From contig NZ_VOXE01000001.1 in assembly GCF_008014695.1 (NCBI RefSeq), positions 434,001 through 498,000 on the forward strand: a DNA stretch of 64,000 bases, written 5' to 3'. Positions 291 to 63,277 of the stretch are shown here, piece by piece; within the stretch, counting starts at the first letter, position 1; each line of letters opens with the position of its first letter. The DNA is from Chryseobacterium sp. (lineage in GTDB: Bacteria; Bacteroidota; Bacteroidia; Flavobacteriales; Weeksellaceae). The notes under the pieces are model-generated. The model was not told the DNA's origin, did no database searches, and saw only the letters and a program-made list of their open reading frames with translations. A program made the translations under genes and the position numbers.

Positions 291-3200
291 ATGAAAATAT
301 TTCCTGTTCCTGCCAATGAGCATGAACGCCTGAAAAAACTGGAATTTTTTGATCTGATGCATTTGGGAAAAGATCCCGAGCTCGACGTTTTTGCGGAGGT
401 GGCATGCCTGATTGCAGACTGTCCGGCATCAATCGTGGCAATGATGGAGGAGGAAACCCAAACCATACAAAGTTGCGTAGGGATGGACCTGGATTTTGTA
501 GACCGTAAAGACACGGTTTGCCAGTACGCTATTGCCAGCCGGGAAATCCTAATTATTGAAGATACCCTGCTCGATGACAGATCATCATCAAACCCACTTA
601 TAATCGCAGGCGGAATTCGTTTCTATGCGGGGGTGCCACTCATCGATGATGAGGGTTTTGCATTAGGCACACTCTGCGTTATCGATTATAAACCTAAACC
701 AATTTCTGAAAAGCAAGTGGCTTCACTGAAAAAGATGGGGGAAGCGATCACGAAAATTTTGATGGGGAAGAAAAGAAATATTCAGGCTGAGTATTTTGAA
801 CAGACCTTCAGTGTGACCAATAATCTCATCTGCGTTCTCGATAATAATTTTAAGATAAAGAATCTGAACCCTTCATTTGAAGAGGTATTTCAAATAAGTA
901 AATGTGAGGTGCTCAACAGTAATTTTGTTGCGTTTCTGGGAGAAAATAATACGGATTTACACCAGCTTGCTGAAACGTTCCCCCAACATCAGGAGAAACT
1001 TTTTTTAACGACCACCACCCAAATTGATCTTTCAACAAAAATAACTGTTGAATGGTATATTAAGCAGAACCAAAACAATTCAGAAATATTTTGCTTTGGA
1101 ATCAATATTTCCCACCTTATTGAGGAAAAAACCAAACTGGAAAGATCTGAACGCAGATTCAGGAGTTTTTTCGAAAATGCCATCGGACTTATGAGTATGC
1201 ATGATATGGAAGGGAATATTTTGGATGTGAACGAAAAAGGAAGGGAAACACTTAACTATTCGATTGAAGAAACCAGGAGCCTGAATCTGAAAGATCTGGT
1301 TCCCCAGAAAAACTGGACATTTCTGGAGCAGTACCTTGAACGGATTGCATTAAACGGTGAAGATTTAGGTACAATGGTCCTTAAGTCAAAAGCAGGTGAA
1401 GAAATGTTCTGGATGTATCACAACGTAGTAGATACTGATGAGGAAGGAAAGCCTTATGTAATGAGTACATCGCTCAACATTACCGAAAGAATGGCCCTTG
1501 AGAAAGACCTTGTATATACTAAAAAGATCCTGGAACAAACGAGTGCTGTTGCAAAAGTTGGCGGATGGGAAGTGAATATGAAGCACGGTACCGTCTTTTG
1601 GTCACAGTCTACAAGAGATATTCATAAAGTAGATCAAACCTTCGAGCCCGATTTGGAACGCGCGATGAAATTTTATACTCCAGAAAGCGAAAAAAGAGCC
1701 CGTTTTCTATTCAACAGGGCGGTTACAGAAGGTATGCCTTATGATGAAGAATTGGAACTTGTGCAAAATGACGGCACTATTATATGGGTGCGGGTAATAG
1801 GAATACCTGAATTTGAAAATGAATTCTGCACCAAAGTATTTGGAATTATACAGAATGTAGATGTTTTTAAAAAGATCTATTTGGAACTGTCGAGAAAAGA
1901 AGCAATGCTGCAGTCATTTGTAGCTGATGTTCCTGTTGCTGTAGCAATGCTGGATATGGAGTTGAAATACCTAAACGTCAGCAAATCCTGGACTGAAGAA
2001 TTTTCCATGAACCGTAAGGAAATTATTGGTAAAAATATATTGTATACTTCTATTGAGGTTCCGGTAGAAATAAGCCAGATTTATCTCGATGCACTGAATG
2101 GCAAATCTTATAGGAATGAGGATTTAGCGCTCAAAGTTTCCAATAAAGAGGAGATCCAGCATTACAAGATGGAAGTGGGTCCCTGGTACCTGTCTGACGG
2201 GCTGAAAGGAGGAGTCATTGTTTCCATCCAAAATATTACCGAATCCGTAAAGACAAATGAAGAACTTAAAAACGCAAAAGAAATCGCCGATTTAGCCAGC
2301 AAAGCGAAGTCAGAGTTTTTAGCCAATATGAGCCATGAGATCAGGACTCCACTCAACGGGGTAATCGGATTTTCAGATCTTCTGCTTAAAACTCCGCTGA
2401 ACGAAATGCAGACACAGTATCTGAATTATATTAATGAATCAGGCGAAAGTTTGCTGAGCATCATCAACGATATTCTCGATTTTTCTAAAATAGAATCCGG
2501 AAAGATGGAGCTTCTGATTGACCGTTCCAACGTTTATGATCTCGTAAGCCAGGTAATGAATGTCATTCTTTATCAGTCCCAACGCAAGGATATTGAACTT
2601 TTGCTGAATATTGAACAGGGATTGCCCAAAAATGTTTTCCTCGACGAATCGCGAATCAAACAGGTCCTCATCAATTTACTGGGGAATGCCGTGAAATTTA
2701 CTGATCACGGTGAAATTGAACTGAAGGTCGAAAAACTGGAGATGAACAGTGAAAATATCACGTTGCGTTTTTCCGTTCGCGACACAGGAATTGGGATTCC
2801 TAAAGACAAACAGCAGCGGATATTTGATGCTTTTACGCAGGAAGACAGCTCTGTAAGCAAACGTTACGGCGGAACAGGTTTGGGATTAACGATTTCCAAC
2901 AACATTCTGAAATACATGGGCAGCAGGCTAATACTTACCAGCGAACAGCAAAAAGGTTCGGTATTCTGCTTCCAGTTGCAGATTCCTTATGAGATTGATG
3001 AATTGGACGTGAGTTCGGAAGATGAGGATTTGAAAATTGAACGCGTTCTGATTGTAGATGATAATGAAAACAACAGAATCATCCTTCAGCACATGCTGGC
3101 TTACAAAAATATTGATGCAAAACTAGCCGCAAACGGAATGGAGGCCTTACAGATTTTGATGAAAGGCGAGCGTTTTGATGTTATTTTGATGGATTACCAC

Positions 3201-48690: not shown

Positions 48691-48777
48691 GTCAGCGTTT
48701 TCTTTGTTAAATTTAATTATAAATTTCAATCTTAGAGCAATGGTTTTTAAATTATCATACAATTTTGATGATCAGTT

Positions 48778-48806
48778 TTGAGATTTAAAATAAATTTCTA
48801 TCTTTG
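48778..48806 (+). promoter_or_regulatory. Promoter of the pyrB leader
   Basis: TTG (48778-48780) and, 18 bases on, TATCTTTG (48799-48806) form a near-ideal flavobacterial promoter. Transcription would start around 48812-48814, at the leader ATG or just before it. Confidence 0.7.
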
Positions 48807-48812
48807 CACCTA

Positions 48813-48887
48813 ATGAAAAGAACATTTCCATTAGACGTGATACAGATAGGCAGAAATGCCGATTTCAGCAATATTTATTTTATTTAA
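48813..48887 (+). CDS. pyrB leader peptide
   Basis: ATG to TAA, 24 residues (MKRTFPLDVIQIGRN then ADFSNIYFI). It starts immediately after the promoter, and its last six codons are a run of U-rich codons (AAU AUU UAU UUU AUU). Its stop codon at 48885-48887 overlaps the foot of the terminator stem by two bases. A ribosome reaching the stop would cover the 5' arm of the hairpin and let RNA polymerase read on into pyrB. This is the layout of the E. coli pyrBI attenuator. Expression is inferred, not shown. Confidence 0.65.
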   Translation: MKRTFPLDVIQIGRNADFSNIYFI

Positions 48888-48915
48888 CGAAGCCATTTTG
48901 GCTTCGTTTTTTTTT
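48886..48915 (+). terminator. Attenuator hairpin before pyrB
   Basis: AACGAAGCC-ATTTT-GGCTTCGTT is a perfect 9-bp stem with a 5-base loop, followed by a T run to 48915. It lies between the leader peptide and the pyrB start (48934). A terminator in this place must be overcome for pyrB to be expressed. Confidence 0.85.
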
Positions 48916-48933
48916 GATTTTAAGTGAACGACT

Positions 48934-49824
48934 ATGCTTACAACCACCGATTTAACTGCAGAAAAAATTTACAGTCTGTTAAAGACTGCCGATGAATTTT
49001 CAAAGGGAAAAGTTTTGAAAGCCCAAAATGAAATTTATGTTTCAAATCTTTTTTTTGAAGATAGTACGCGTACCAAAACGAGTTTCGATGTTGCAGAAAG
49101 AAAATTAGGGCTGCACGTAGTGCCTTTTGATGTAACGTCGAGTTCTGTAAATAAAGGGGAGTCCTTATATGATACGGTCAAAACACTTGAAAGTGTAGGA
49201 ATAAACCTGGTCGTGATCCGACATCAAAAAGACCGGTTTTATGATGATTTAAAAAAAATAGATATTCCGGTGATCAACGGCGGCGATGGGACGGGAAATC
49301 ACCCTTCCCAGTGTCTGCTGGATCTGATGACCATTCACCAGGAATTCGGAAAATTCGAAGGTCTGAAAGTGGGAATCGTTGGCGATGTAAAGCACAGCAG
49401 AGTGGCCAATTCCAATGCTGAAGCCTTAAGGAAACTGGGCGCTAAAGTATACTTTTCAGGACCTGAAAAATGGTTCGATGAGGGAACCATCATCAACGGA
49501 ACTTACCGTTCTCTGGATAATCTGATTAAAGAAGTGGACGTGCTGATGCTGCTCAGAATCCAGCATGAGAGACATGGCGAAAAAATGAAGATCTCTCTGG
49601 AAACCTACCATAACAAATATGGTTTGACCAAAGAACGTGAAAAAATCATGAAAAAAGAGGCCATCATTATGCATCCGGCACCGATTAACAGAGGAGTGGA
49701 AATTGATGATGAACTCGTGGAATGCAGCCGTTCCCGAATTTTTAAACAGATGGAAAACGGAGTTTTTGCCCGAATGGCCATTCTGAAAGATGTCCTCGAA
49801 GAAAAAGGGTTTGAGTTTAAATAA
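48934..49824 (+). CDS. pyrB: Aspartate carbamoyltransferase catalytic chain
   Basis: 296 residues. The carbamoyl phosphate site [20 protein letters not shown] is at residues 33-52, the aspartate-binding part [12 protein letters not shown] near 205, and the late [13 protein letters not shown] motif is intact. It joins carbamoyl phosphate and aspartate in pyrimidine synthesis. No pyrI is adjacent, as is usual in Bacteroidota for this form. It is first of three forward genes with carA and carB, though the 100-base gap after it has its own repeat. Confidence 0.97.
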
Positions 49825-49924
49825 CAGACATCAGATATTAGACATCAGATCTATTCAAATTAAAACAATAACTATTTTTCAGTCTGAAATCTGATATCTC
49901 AAGTCTGAAATCTAACAAAATAAA
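49825..49924. repeat. Inverted repeat words between pyrB and carA
   Basis: ACATCAGATATTAGACATCAGATC faces AGTCTGAAATCTGATATCTCAAGTCTG. The words are reverse complements in part, so the RNA could form a hairpin of imperfect pairing. Similar words reappear after carA at about 51000-51030. Confidence 0.6.
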
Positions 49925-51010
49925 ATGAAAAAGAAATTAATATTAGAATCCGGTGAAGTATTCCATGGTGAGGGTTTCGGAGCCAATCTGGAGACAGATG
50001 GTGAAGTGGTCTTCAATACAGGAATGACCGGCTATCAGGAACTTATTTCCGACCCGTCCTATTGCGGACAGATCGTGTGCATGACCTATCCTTTGATCGG
50101 GAATTACGGCATCAACCGCGACGATTATGAGAGCATTGAACCTGCAATCAAAGGTTTAATTGTAAAGGAACTCTGCGATTTCCCATCGAATTTCCGGAAC
50201 CAGTTGACTTTGCATGAATTTTTTCAGAAAAAGAAACTTTCAGGAATCTCCGGAATCGACACGAGAAGACTTACAAGGGTTTTGCGGAGCAAAGGAGTGG
50301 TGAAAGGAAAAATAGTGGATGATAATTCAAACGAAAATTCAGTCATTGAAAATTTAAAAAACACCGTTTTTCCAATCAATCAGGTCGAACAGGTTTCCAC
50401 AAAAACGGCGTATGCAAGTCCGGGAAGAGGATTGAAAGTGGTTCTGGTGGATTTCGGTTCCAAACTCGGAATCTTGCGGGAACTTACCCAACGCGACTGT
50501 GATGTTACGGTCGTTTCACAGGATGTGACGGCGGAAGAAATTTTGCTGATGGATCCCGATGGGATTATGCTTTCCAACGGTCCCGGTGATCCGGAAGATG
50601 TGAAAGGCGCGTCTGAACTCATCAACGGTCTGCTCGGAAAAGTACCGATTTTTGGAATCTGTTTGGGACATCAGCTTATCGGTTTGGCTTGCGGGGCAAA
50701 AACCTTCAAACTGAAGTTCGGTCACCGCGGCGGAAACCATCCTGTTCTGGATTTAAAGAACAACAAAGTGGCCATTACTTCCCAGAATCATGGTTACGCC
50801 GTAGATCAGGACTCACTGAAAGATACCGATCTGGAAGAAACACACATCGCCCTGAACGACCGTACCAACGAAGGCTTGAAACATAAAATTCATCCGTGTT
50901 TCTCAGTTCAGTACCACCCGGAAGCCAGCCCGGGTCCGGAAGACGCCAATTATCTGTTTGATGAATTTATTGAGCTGATGGAGGATTTTAAAACAGCAGA
51001 TGTCAGATAG
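49925..51010 (+). CDS. carA: Carbamoyl phosphate synthase small chain
   Basis: 361 residues. The N-terminal CPSase domain is followed by a class I glutamine amidotransferase: nucleophile Cys246 in FGICLGHQ, then YHPEASPGP near 330 with the catalytic His and Glu. It releases ammonia from glutamine for the large chain. carB follows 154 bases downstream; the gap holds repeat words and no second gene. Confidence 0.97.
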   Translation: MKKKLILESGEVFHGEGFGANLETDGEVVFNTGMTGYQELISDPSYCGQIVCMTYPLIGNYGINRDDYESIEPAIKGLIVKELCDFPSNFRNQLTLHEFFQKKKLSGISGIDTRRLTRVLRSKGVVKGKIVDDNSNENSVIENLKNTVFPINQVEQVSTKTAYASPGRGLKVVLVDFGSKLGILRELTQRDCDVTVVSQDVTAEEILLMDPDGIMLSNGPGDPEDVKGASELINGLLGKVPIFGICLGHQLIGLACGAKTFKLKFGHRGGNHPVLDLKNNKVAITSQNHGYAVDQDSLKDTDLEETHIALNDRTNEGLKHKIHPCFSVQYHPEASPGPEDANYLFDEFIELMEDFKTADVR

Positions 51011-51164
51011 TAGACATCAGATTACAGAAAAAACAACTGTGAAGTAAGAAATAAATGTACAATTTTGAAAATTTTCTGTCAGGAACTAATGCTTTCGCAA
51101 AGAATTGAAAATAATCTACTAAAACAGTCTTGAATCTTGGTTCTAGACTCTTGAATCTATAAAA
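51011..51164. other. Gap between carA and carB
   Basis: 154 bases. Holds AGACATCAGATTAC words like those before carA and the repeated CTTGAATCTTGG/CTCTTGAATCT phrase just before the carB start. A 17-codon frame (51055-51108) is present but I do not accept it as a gene. No terminator is seen, so read-through from carA is possible. Confidence 0.5.
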
Positions 51165-54100
51165 ATGAAAAGAAACGACATAAAAACAATCCTCGTTATC
51201 GGGTCCGGGCCGATCATCATCGGTCAGGCTGCTGAATTCGATTACGCAGGAACTCAGGCCTGTTTGGCACTGCGAGAAGAAGGATATAAGGTGATTCTGA
51301 TCAATTCAAATCCCGCCACCATCATGACCGACGTTGAAATTGCCGACAAAGTGTATATCGAGCCGATTTCCCTTCCGTTTGTGAGCCATATCATCAGAAA
51401 AGAAAGGCCGGATGCGCTCTTACCCACTCTGGGCGGTCAAACCGGACTCAACATGGCGGTGGAATTGCAGAACTCCGGAATTCTGGAGGAATGCAAAGTG
51501 GAAGTTCTAGGAACCAAACTTTCCGCTATCAATCAGGCGGAAGACCGCGATTTGTTCCGCGAACTCATGAGGGAACTTAATGAACCGGTTCCGGATTCCG
51601 ATATTGTGAATACCGTTCAGGGTGCTTTGGAATTTGCCCAGAACATCGGTTATCCGGTGATCGTCCGTCCTGCCTTTACAATGGGCGGAACCGGTGGCGG
51701 AATCGCTGCCAATGAAGAGGAACTGAAAGAAATTGCCAGTTTCGGTCTCAAATATTCACCCGTAACCCAGTGTCTGATCGAGAAATCCATTGCCGGATTC
51801 AAAGAAATTGAGTACGAAGTGATGCGCGACAAAAACGATAATGCAATCGTGGTCTGCAACATGGAAAATATCGATCCGGTCGGAATTCACACCGGAGATT
51901 CCATTGTAGTGGCACCGTCGCAGACTTTATCGGACCGCGAATACCAGATGCTGAGAAATGCATCGTTAAAAATTATCCGTGCACTCGGAATTGAGGGCGG
52001 CTGTAACGTTCAGCTGGCTTTAGATCCAAACTCTTTTGATTACTACATTATTGAAGTGAATCCGCGGGTTTCCCGGTCTTCGGCTCTGGCGAGTAAAGCA
52101 ACGGGTTATCCGATTGCGAAAATTGCGGCAAAAATTGCGGTGGGTTTAACGTTGGATGAAATTATGAATCCGGTTACAGGGAAGACTTACGCTTGTTTTG
52201 AACCTGCTTTGGATTATGTTGTGACGAAATTTCCAAGATTTCCTTTTGATAAATTCGAGACTGCAGACCGCCGGCTTTCCACCCAAATGAAAGCCACGGG
52301 TGAAGTGATGGCCATCGGAAGAAATTTTGAGGAATCGTTGCAGAAAGCCATCCGTTCTCTGGAAACCGGTTTAAGACATATCGGTCTGAAATCCAAGCAG
52401 GCAGAAGAGCTGACCGACGAAGAAATTGAAAGAAGAATACGTGTGTGCGATGACGAAAGGTTATTCATCATTGGTGATGCTTTGCGGAGAGGCTACGACT
52501 GGGAAAAAATTGTGGAATGGAGCAAGATCGATAAATTCTTTATCTGGAAAATCAAAAAACTGATTGATTTTGAAAAAGTCATTGCCGAAAACAAATTCGA
52601 TACTGAGATATTGCTGAAAGCGAAAAAACTCGGTTTTTCAGATTTCAGCATCGCCCATTTATGGGATTCAAGCCAAAAAGAAATTTTTGAGTTCAGAAGA
52701 ACCAACGCTGTGATGCCGGTTTATAAAATGGTGGATACCTGTGCTGCCGAGTTCGAAAGTGAAACGCCGTATTTCTACGGAACGTATGAAGAAGAAAACG
52801 AAAGCGTTCCTTCAGACCGCGAAAAAATCATCGTTCTGGGTTCCGGACCCATCAGAATCGGGCAGGGTGTTGAGTTTGATTATGCGACGGTACACTCGGT
52901 TTGGGCAATTAAAGAAATGGGTTACGAAGCTATCATCATCAACAACAATCCGGAAACGGTTTCCACCGATTTCTCGATTTCAGACAAACTTTATTTCGAG
53001 CCTTTAACTGAAGAAGATGTGATGAACATCATCGAACTCGAAAAACCAAAAGGCGTTGTGGTACAGTTCGGCGGGCAAACAGCCATTAATCTGGCAGATA
53101 AACTGGCGGCACACGGCGTAAAGATTTTGGGAACTTCGTTGGAAGACCTTGATCGTGCCGAAAACCGAAATAAATTTGAAGCCGCCCTTCAGGAACTCGG
53201 AATTCCACAGCCTTTGGGAAAAACCTGCTTCACGAAAGAGGAAGCTTTGGTTATCGCCAACGAAATCGGATTCCCGGTATTGGTTCGTCCGAGTTATGTT
53301 TTGGGCGGAAGAGCCATGGAAATTGTGTACGACGAGAAAGAACTCGATTATTATATGACGAATGCGGTGAAGGAAAATTCGGAGCATCCGATCCTCATCG
53401 ACCGTTATTTGACCGGAAAAGAAGTGGAAGTAGATGCCATTTCTGATGGCGAGACCGTTGTAATTCCGGGAATCATGGAACATATCGAAAGGGCAGGAGT
53501 GCATTCCGGCGACTCCATCGCGGTGTATCCGCCGCAGAATATTGACCAGAGACAGATCGATATGCTCGTTGATTATACCGAAAGGCTGGCAAAAGGCTTG
53601 AATGTCATCGGTCTGATGAATATTCAGTATGTTTTGTACGAAGGGGAGGTGTATGTGATTGAGGTAAATCCGCGATCGAGCAGAACCGTACCTTTCCTTT
53701 CAAAAATTACCGAAATCCCGATGGCCAATCTCGCTACGAAAGTGATTCTCGGTCAAAAGTTGAAAGATCTGGGCTATAAAAACGGCCTGGCTCCTGTGAA
53801 GGAGGGGATTTTTGTAAAAGTTCCGGTATTTTCTTTCTCCAAATTAACGAAAGTGGATATCTCGCTCGGTCCGGAAATGAAATCCACTGGAGAAGTGATG
53901 GGCAAAGACACGACGCTCGAAAAAGCGCTTTACAAAGGCCTCATCGGTTCCGGAAGAAAAATGCCGCTGCACGGCGCCATCCTTTTCACCGTTGCCGATA
54001 AACACAAAGAAGAAGCCTGTGAACTTGCCAGACGTTTTCAGGAAATTGGTTTTAAAATCTGGGCGACCGAAGGAACAGCGAATTATTTTCAGGAACACGG

Positions 54101-54347
54101 CGTCAGAACCAAAATCGGTTACAAAATCGAGGAAAACCCGGAAATCAATCTGATTGATCTCATCCAGAAAGGAAAGGTACAGTATATTGTGAACACAATG
54201 ACGAAAGGGAAGCAGTCGGAAAGAGACGGTTTCCAGATCCGAAGAACTTCTGTCGAGAACGGCGTTCCATGTCTGACTTCAATGGATACCGTGGAAGCGA
54301 TTCTGAAAGTGATTGAAAGTATGAGTTTCAAGATGGAAAAAATGTAG
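51165..54347 (+). CDS. carB: Carbamoyl phosphate synthase large chain
   Basis: 1060 residues with the duplicated structure of the large chain: first ATP-grasp half opening [20 protein letters not shown], second half opening [20 protein letters not shown] (near residue 552), and a C-terminal MGS-like allosteric domain (about 930-1060; [12 protein letters not shown]). It makes carbamoyl phosphate from bicarbonate, ammonia and two ATP, feeding both pyrimidine and arginine synthesis. Transcription ends at the strong hairpin 54361-54398. Confidence 0.98.
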
Positions 54348-63192: not shown

Positions 63193-63277
63193 GGAGAGCT
63201 GGCAGAGTGGTCGATTGCGGCAGTCTTGAAAACTGTTGACTGTAACAGGTCCTGGGGTTCGAATCCCTAGCTCTCCG
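63193..63277 (+). tRNA. tRNA-Ser (anticodon UGA)
   Basis: 85 nucleotides. Acceptor arms GGAGAGC and GCTCTCC pair perfectly with discriminator G. The anticodon loop CTTGAAA gives TGA. A long variable arm (around TTGACTGTAACAGGTCC) and the T-loop GGTTCGAATCC confirm a class II serine tRNA. CCA is not encoded. Followed by a terminator. Confidence 0.97.

Follow-up and report, generated by a model that had tools for sequence, protein, structure and literature searches.

The window, as the whole stretch of 64,000 nucleotides of Chryseobacterium sp. DNA analysed here is called, carries pyrB, carA and carB in this order behind a short leader with a promoter, a small reading frame, two hairpins, a U-rich tract and a predicted terminator (Table 1). 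On the other side of the leader an acetate--CoA ligase gene diverges on the minus strand (frame from 48762); as it points away, the promoter should belong to the pyrB operon itself. A carA N-terminal motif follows 3' of pyrB in 80 of 80 loci, which were the best 80 of 558 pyrB loci in named genomes and came from Kaistella, Chryseobacterium, Riemerella, Soonwooa and other relatives. Motifs resembling TCAGACATCAGA flank carA in both orientations (49824-49908 and 51010-51021). Window-wide, 11 matches to TCAGACATCAGA with at most two mismatches compare with 4.6 expected, and 2 of 100 shuffles reach 11. The window's sole Rfam match at gathering score is a tRNA gene at 63193-63277.

Table 1. Features of the pyrB-carAB locus, with positions counted from the first letter of the window
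Feature	Position	Strand	Details
-33 element TTTG	48777-48780	+	18-nt spacer to -7 box; direct reading
-7 box TATCTTTG	48799-48806	+	TAnnTTTG type; direct reading
P1, 5' hairpin CTAATG/CATTAG	48810-48834	+	Pairs the leader AUG; partly conserved; z 3.2
Predicted transcription start	48811 (+/- 1-2 nt)	+	Inferred from TAnnTTTG placement in flavobacteria
Near-leaderless leader frame, 24 codons (MKRTFPLDVIQIGRNADFSNIYFI) and TAA	48813-48887	+	ATG 48813-48815, TAA 48885-48887; direct reading
P2, GGCA-GAAA-TGCC hairpin, candidate pause hairpin	48849-48860	+	Within the leader frame; z 7.5, compensatory changes
U-rich tract ATATTTATTTTATTT	48871-48885	+	Extends into the stop codon, which lies at the terminator foot
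Predicted intrinsic terminator (attenuator), stem AACGAAGCC/GGCTTCGTT and T9	48886-48915	+	Stem 48886-48908, T run 48907-48915
pyrB, aspartate carbamoyltransferase catalytic subunit	48934-49824	+	NF002032, 365 bits (cut-off 263)
carA, carbamoyl-phosphate synthase small subunit	49925-51010	+	NF009475, 484.6 bits
carB, carbamoyl-phosphate synthase large subunit	51165-54347	+	NF003671, 1630 bits

The promoter reads directly as TTTG-N18-TATCTTTG. An earlier sequence-only reading of this DNA had placed a promoter with an 18-nt spacer here and a leader frame starting near the transcription start, and both hold (predicted start 48811, ATG 48813). The consensus TTTG/TAnnTTTG is that of Bacteroides promoters (excerpt of PMC7366714). 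Flavobacterial TAnnTTTG boxes sit at -12 to -5 (excerpt of PMC9723704), and a 5' UTR of about 2 nt is predicted for the leader on this ground. Positions T1, A2, T5, T6, T7 and G8 of the -7 box do not vary in any of the 39 leaders aligned; a search for the same pattern had served to anchor these leaders. The window's leader ATG begins 6 nt after the TTTG of the box; among 89 distinct leaders this distance is 6 nt in 82, 5 nt in 6 and 7 nt in one, with 3-9 nt accepted by the script and 0 of 121 loci lost. Shine-Dalgarno sequences are described as absent in flavobacteria, and leaderless messages as rare, at 5.5% in F. psychrophilum (excerpt of PMC9723704); about 3.7% of the 5' UTRs of B. thetaiotaomicron are under 10 nt (excerpt of PMC7366714).

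The predicted terminator stem has 9 perfect pairs, or 10 when the A-T of the loop is counted, and is followed by nine T, which bears out the perfect 9-bp hairpin with a T run claimed before pyrB. Over 21 aligned sequences 100% of its cells are paired and 7 of the 9 pairs are invariant. An intrinsic terminator between leader and pyrB is thus predicted from the letters. Of 89 distinct leaders, 75 have their stop 1-6 nt ahead of the terminator foot and 2 have it at -11 or -17, and in 12 the frame continues through the hairpin; a ribosome would therefore reach the hairpin foot in 87 of the 89 and come near it in the other 2. In the leaders of L014, L015 and L031, situated just before base 3001 of each locus, the frame crosses the terminator in single species, and these are natural variants. 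The number of terminator-like sites in the window is unexceptional (5, against 6.6 expected in shuffles), as is that of promoter-like sites (12 against 11.5 expected, by an E. coli-type scan). The fold of 48811-48933 has a z of -2.4, with 2 of 200 shuffles equally good. The leader is considered more than chance because it is conserved among relatives, not because of site counts. A plain terminator joined by a chance frame, with no regulation, would suit the terminator count taken alone; against conservation over 25 genera with a kept frame, such an arrangement is extremely improbable.

This pyrB was found in 163 of 197 genomes and 26 of 33 genera of the family group, Weeksellaceae, which includes Kaistella. 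Its identity to the pyrB of the window is 54-100% within the family and at most 47% outside, among the matches listed. The other 34 of the 197 genomes, seven whole genera included, gave no pyrB match at E 1e-40 and may have lost de novo pyrimidine synthesis. Further upstream regions were read at 40 places and in 8 more genomes. A covariance model, R1, was built from 21 of 39 leaders, since P2 of the Chryseobacterium group came out misaligned when MAFFT was run on the full 39. Among the 26 sampled family genera with this pyrB it recognises the leader before the gene in 25, with a best score of 128 bits and weakest scores of 34 to 40 bits (three genera); some of the matched sequences had trained the model. 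The genome of the window has one strong match. Among 296 genomes of the phylum 20 gave a match, and 7 of these 20 belong to the family. The window's own genome and 13 others contributed 19 weak matches, of which 17 sit where an open frame of at least 80 aa ends, at ordinary gene-end terminators; the remaining two are L188 (E 7.7, before an apparent atpD) and L195. Downstream of the 19 no pyr gene was recognisable, the frames being judged by eye. L188, which belongs to the same genome as the window, starts with letters similar to TCAGACATCAGA.

The sole genus of the 26 without an R1 match is g17 (6 genomes, pyrB 54-56% identical). Its leader is longer, roughly 130-210 nt with the promoter placed by motif match only, and has no ATG frame like the others. 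Five of its six genomes (among L234-L239) share a different terminator, resembling AACATCTT...AAGATGTT, and L236 shows none; in L239, TTG frames extend to the terminator. The upstream region of g17 may be a different attenuator. The sequence-only reading had named as fatal to its proposal that relatives keep the hairpin and lose the frame; hairpin, U tract and frame are all kept, with g17 as the exception.

The reading frame of the leader is conserved as a frame. The 24 codons and the overlap of the stop with the terminator foot, both claimed before, are upheld by direct reading and by conservation. In all 42 representatives frame 0 carries no stop between the start and a point 18 nt short of the terminator, as against 2 and 14 of the 42 for the other frames; the 18-nt limit was chosen after one leader stop at -17 had been seen, and the TGA inside ATGA inflates the count for frame 1. 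When each genus is represented by a single leader and codons 1 and 2 are ignored, all 24 genera have frame 0 open, as against 3 and 9 for the other two frames (g17 and g30 are absent from this set). The joint shuffle probability of 24 open frames is 10^-9.9 with the genera taken as independent, more so than their kinship allows. Three outliers (L120, L121 and L126) are outside the 39-leader alignment and inside the frame, antiterminator, P1, P2 and U-tract tests. L014, with its frame through the hairpin, is out of the frame and antiterminator tests on the 42 representatives and in the counts of tract phase (43 leaders) and stop position (89).

The peptide itself leaves no such trace. In 25 nearest-neighbour pairs, 56 substitutions fall on the three codon positions as 19, 19 and 18, and 11 of the 56 are silent (0.20, with a neutral expectation of 0.20). 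It follows that the frame is kept and the peptide sequence is not, and that neither particular codons nor residues seem to be read. Translation of the leader thus seems, from these comparisons, to be what is kept. Conservation of the peptide as the explanation of the kept frame was considered and is unsupported by the codon-position test. The residues [N/D]-I-[Y/F] recur close to the end of many leaders.

U makes up 0.55 of the 17 nt directly ahead of the terminator and 0.29 of the remaining frame, with the higher fraction in those 17 nt in 24 of 24 genera. The earlier description of six U-rich codons is a fair one for AAT ATT TAT TTT ATT TAA. Relative to the frame, the tract starts in phase 1 in 29 of 43 leaders, in phase 0 in 7 and in phase 2 in 5, with 2 unclassified; in two leaders (L112 and L113) the stop comes before the tract or within it. 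Because of this variable phase and these stops, nucleotides rather than codons seem to be held. The common phase of frame and tract in 29 of 43 leaders speaks against the explanation preferred below, and hence some codon effect may exist.

Two hairpins within the leader, P2 (48849-48860) and P1 (48810-48834), were absent from the sequence-only reading. The summed strength of P2 over 24 genera has a z of 7.5, and P2 is individually significant in only 4 of the 24 genera (11 of 42 representatives). Its 3' end lies a median of 23 nt before the terminator (interquartile range 20-24; shuffled 15-34). On the 21-sequence alignment 82% of its cells pair, and at 3 of the 5 pairs some sequences have both partners changed; the letters of stem and loop differ widely among leaders. 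The U tract begins 4-10 nt past P2 in 34 of 43 leaders, with 7 outside this range and 2 unclassified; some of the 7 are wrong calls of P2 or tract, and the automatic P2 caller chose another hairpin in at least L001, L003, L019 and L022, which was left uncorrected. Pause hairpins stand about 11 nt upstream of the pause. With the spacing found, a polymerase would stand in the U tract with P2 at pause-hairpin distance.

P1 involves the start codon. In Kaistella and Chryseobacterium leaders CTAATG, which includes the start codon, is mostly pairable with CATTAG; other genera have CCAATG/CATTGG, CAATG/CATTG or TTAAT/ATTAA, and several leaders have no such pairing. For P1, where present, the folding of 14 leaders predicts about -3 to -10 kcal/mol, and 71% of its cells pair on the 21-sequence alignment, with some compensatory changes. 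Over 24 genera its z is 3.2, and at least 1 of 400 shuffles reached the observed sum. For this reason P1 as a universal part is only partly supported, and it is presented as a lead offered by the sequences, not as a settled part. Around the predicted start, pyrimidines are followed by A; many leaders read CCUAAUG or CCCAAUG. One might imagine an attenuator with two pyrimidine sensors on a leaderless message, in which the choice of start site gates the ribosome before the U tract reads UTP once more. A start at C or U, with pyrimidines plentiful, would give the full P1 and hide the AUG; a start at A, with pyrimidines scarce, would shorten the hairpin and leave a leaderless AUG ready for use. 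We hold this extension to be quite unlikely.

PyrR (NF003549) was over the cut-off in 0 of 80 family genomes, the best match in the window's own genome being at 3.8e-8; matches below the cut-off occur in 64 of the 80, as expected of other phosphoribosyltransferases. In an order-level set of 119 genomes, NF003549 is over the cut-off in 76 and in none of the 14 family members there. Outside the family, pyrR lies directly upstream of pyrB on the same strand in 75 of 76 pyrB genomes of the order, with a median gap of 66 nt and a largest gap of 532; the leader thus occupies the place that pyrR takes in these relatives. PyrI was not found in the window's own genome by a search that was positive in 7 of 14 control genomes. 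Since pyrimidine feedback cannot draw on PyrR or PyrI here, the attenuator stands out as its candidate.

The leaders of 42 representatives were searched for alternative pairing with either arm of the terminator; z was -1.8 for the 5' arm (below the shuffles) and 0.9 for the 3' arm (chance). This lack of an antiterminator signal speaks against control of both the amino-acid type and the riboswitch type. In an attenuator of the histidine or tryptophan type, particular codons would stall the ribosome and let an antiterminator form. The leader has the frame, the early hairpin and the terminator that such a device needs, as well as the recurrent [N/D]-I-[Y/F], and clues for leader-peptide attenuation before amino-acid operons exist for F. 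psychrophilum (excerpt of PMC9723704). Yet no antiterminator pairing and no codon-position bias was seen, the phase of the tract varies, and the regulated genes make pyrimidines, so that this type is very unlikely here. A metabolite- or protein-binding RNA made of P1 and P2, whether a riboswitch or a PyrR-like site, to which the frame would be incidental, is in our judgement just as hard to credit. Some changes in P1 and P2 are compensatory, as such an RNA would have them, whereas the letters of P2 vary widely, unlike a binding pocket, no Rfam family reaches its gathering score at the leader, PyrR exceeds its cut-off in 0 of 80 genomes, and the frame is kept. The Rfam search at the leader gave, at E up to 10, only sub-threshold matches, none of them near gathering.

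A transcription-translation coupled attenuator of pyrB-carAB, most likely reading UTP, is the probable meaning of these sequence patterns. In the course of events that we infer, from start site and translation to pausing, UTP response and read-through, transcription would begin 1-2 nt before the leader AUG, and a ribosome would load at once on the nearly leaderless message. The polymerase would make P2 and then, mostly 4-10 nt further on, enter the U-rich tract. With UTP plentiful it would clear the tract ahead of the ribosome, the terminator would form, and transcription would stop before pyrB. With UTP scarce it would dwell in the tract, while the ribosome caught up to the tract and melted P2; a ribosome at the stop codon on the terminator foot would then cover the 5' arm and allow read-through into pyrB, carA and carB. 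The main rival is a coupled attenuator of the same build that senses not UTP but translation, that is, ribosome supply, initiation rate or growth state. A frame kept without its peptide and a stop at the terminator foot suit any sensor of ribosome occupancy, and P1 could gate initiation. A pyrimidine signal accounts better for the conserved U tract and for the location ahead of pyrB-carAB in genomes where no PyrR passes the cut-off, and the rival is considered unlikely.

The leader suggests that Weeksellaceae lack the pyrR-pyrB unit of their order and run the head of pyrimidine synthesis by the kinetics of polymerase and ribosome. For Bacteroidota it would be a small, naturally occurring system in which to test how transcription and translation are coupled. 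The principle of attenuation is already known from enterobacteria. In the open-licence literature no report was found of this leader, of its layout (near-leaderless frame, pause-type hairpin, stop at the foot, no PyrR) or of such control in this lineage.

The sequence-only reading had likened the leader to that of E. coli pyrBI. The likeness stands for the features to be expected of this type (a frame kept without its peptide, a U tract, and no antiterminator, PyrR or PyrI detected); the design differs. In both systems a leader peptide gene and an intrinsic terminator precede pyrB. The E. coli pyrBI leader, too, has a U-rich pause region. Ribosome-polymerase coupling across that leader prevents formation of the terminator, according to excerpts of PMC5021804 and PMC4824070. 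The E. coli leader gene has 135 bp with the terminator within it (excerpt of PMC4824070), whereas the leader gene here has 75 bp and its stop at the foot in 75 of 89 leaders; because the E. coli terminator lies within the leader gene, frames that run through the hairpin are not contrary to the mechanism. An excerpt of PMC9291695 describes the pyrL pause of E. coli as unaffected by NusA and as not restored when hairpin changes are compensated; P2 is therefore without a proven counterpart there. A hairpin-assisted pause would set the flavobacterial leader, with its conserved hairpin, apart from pyrBI. UTP-dependent slippage occurs at the E. coli pyrBI start (excerpt of PMC6245113), while no T run follows the predicted start here. 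Further differences are that PyrI was not found in the window's own genome and that the predicted start is near-leaderless. Convergence rather than descent from an enterobacterial leader is assumed; promoter type and leader layout differ.

Other systems share single traits with the pyrB leader. PyrR-dependent pyr operons also place pyrB under pyrimidine control, but the likely reader here is translation of the leader and not a protein. In the attenuator of E. coli pyrE, which is coupled to rph/orfE, the frame of a full-length gene ends just before the terminator, in place of the 24 codons found here. The pause hairpins of his and trp leaders resemble P2 in lying inside the leader frame about 11 nt upstream of the expected pause, and the pyrB leader differs from them in showing no antiterminator signal and no sign of regulatory codons.
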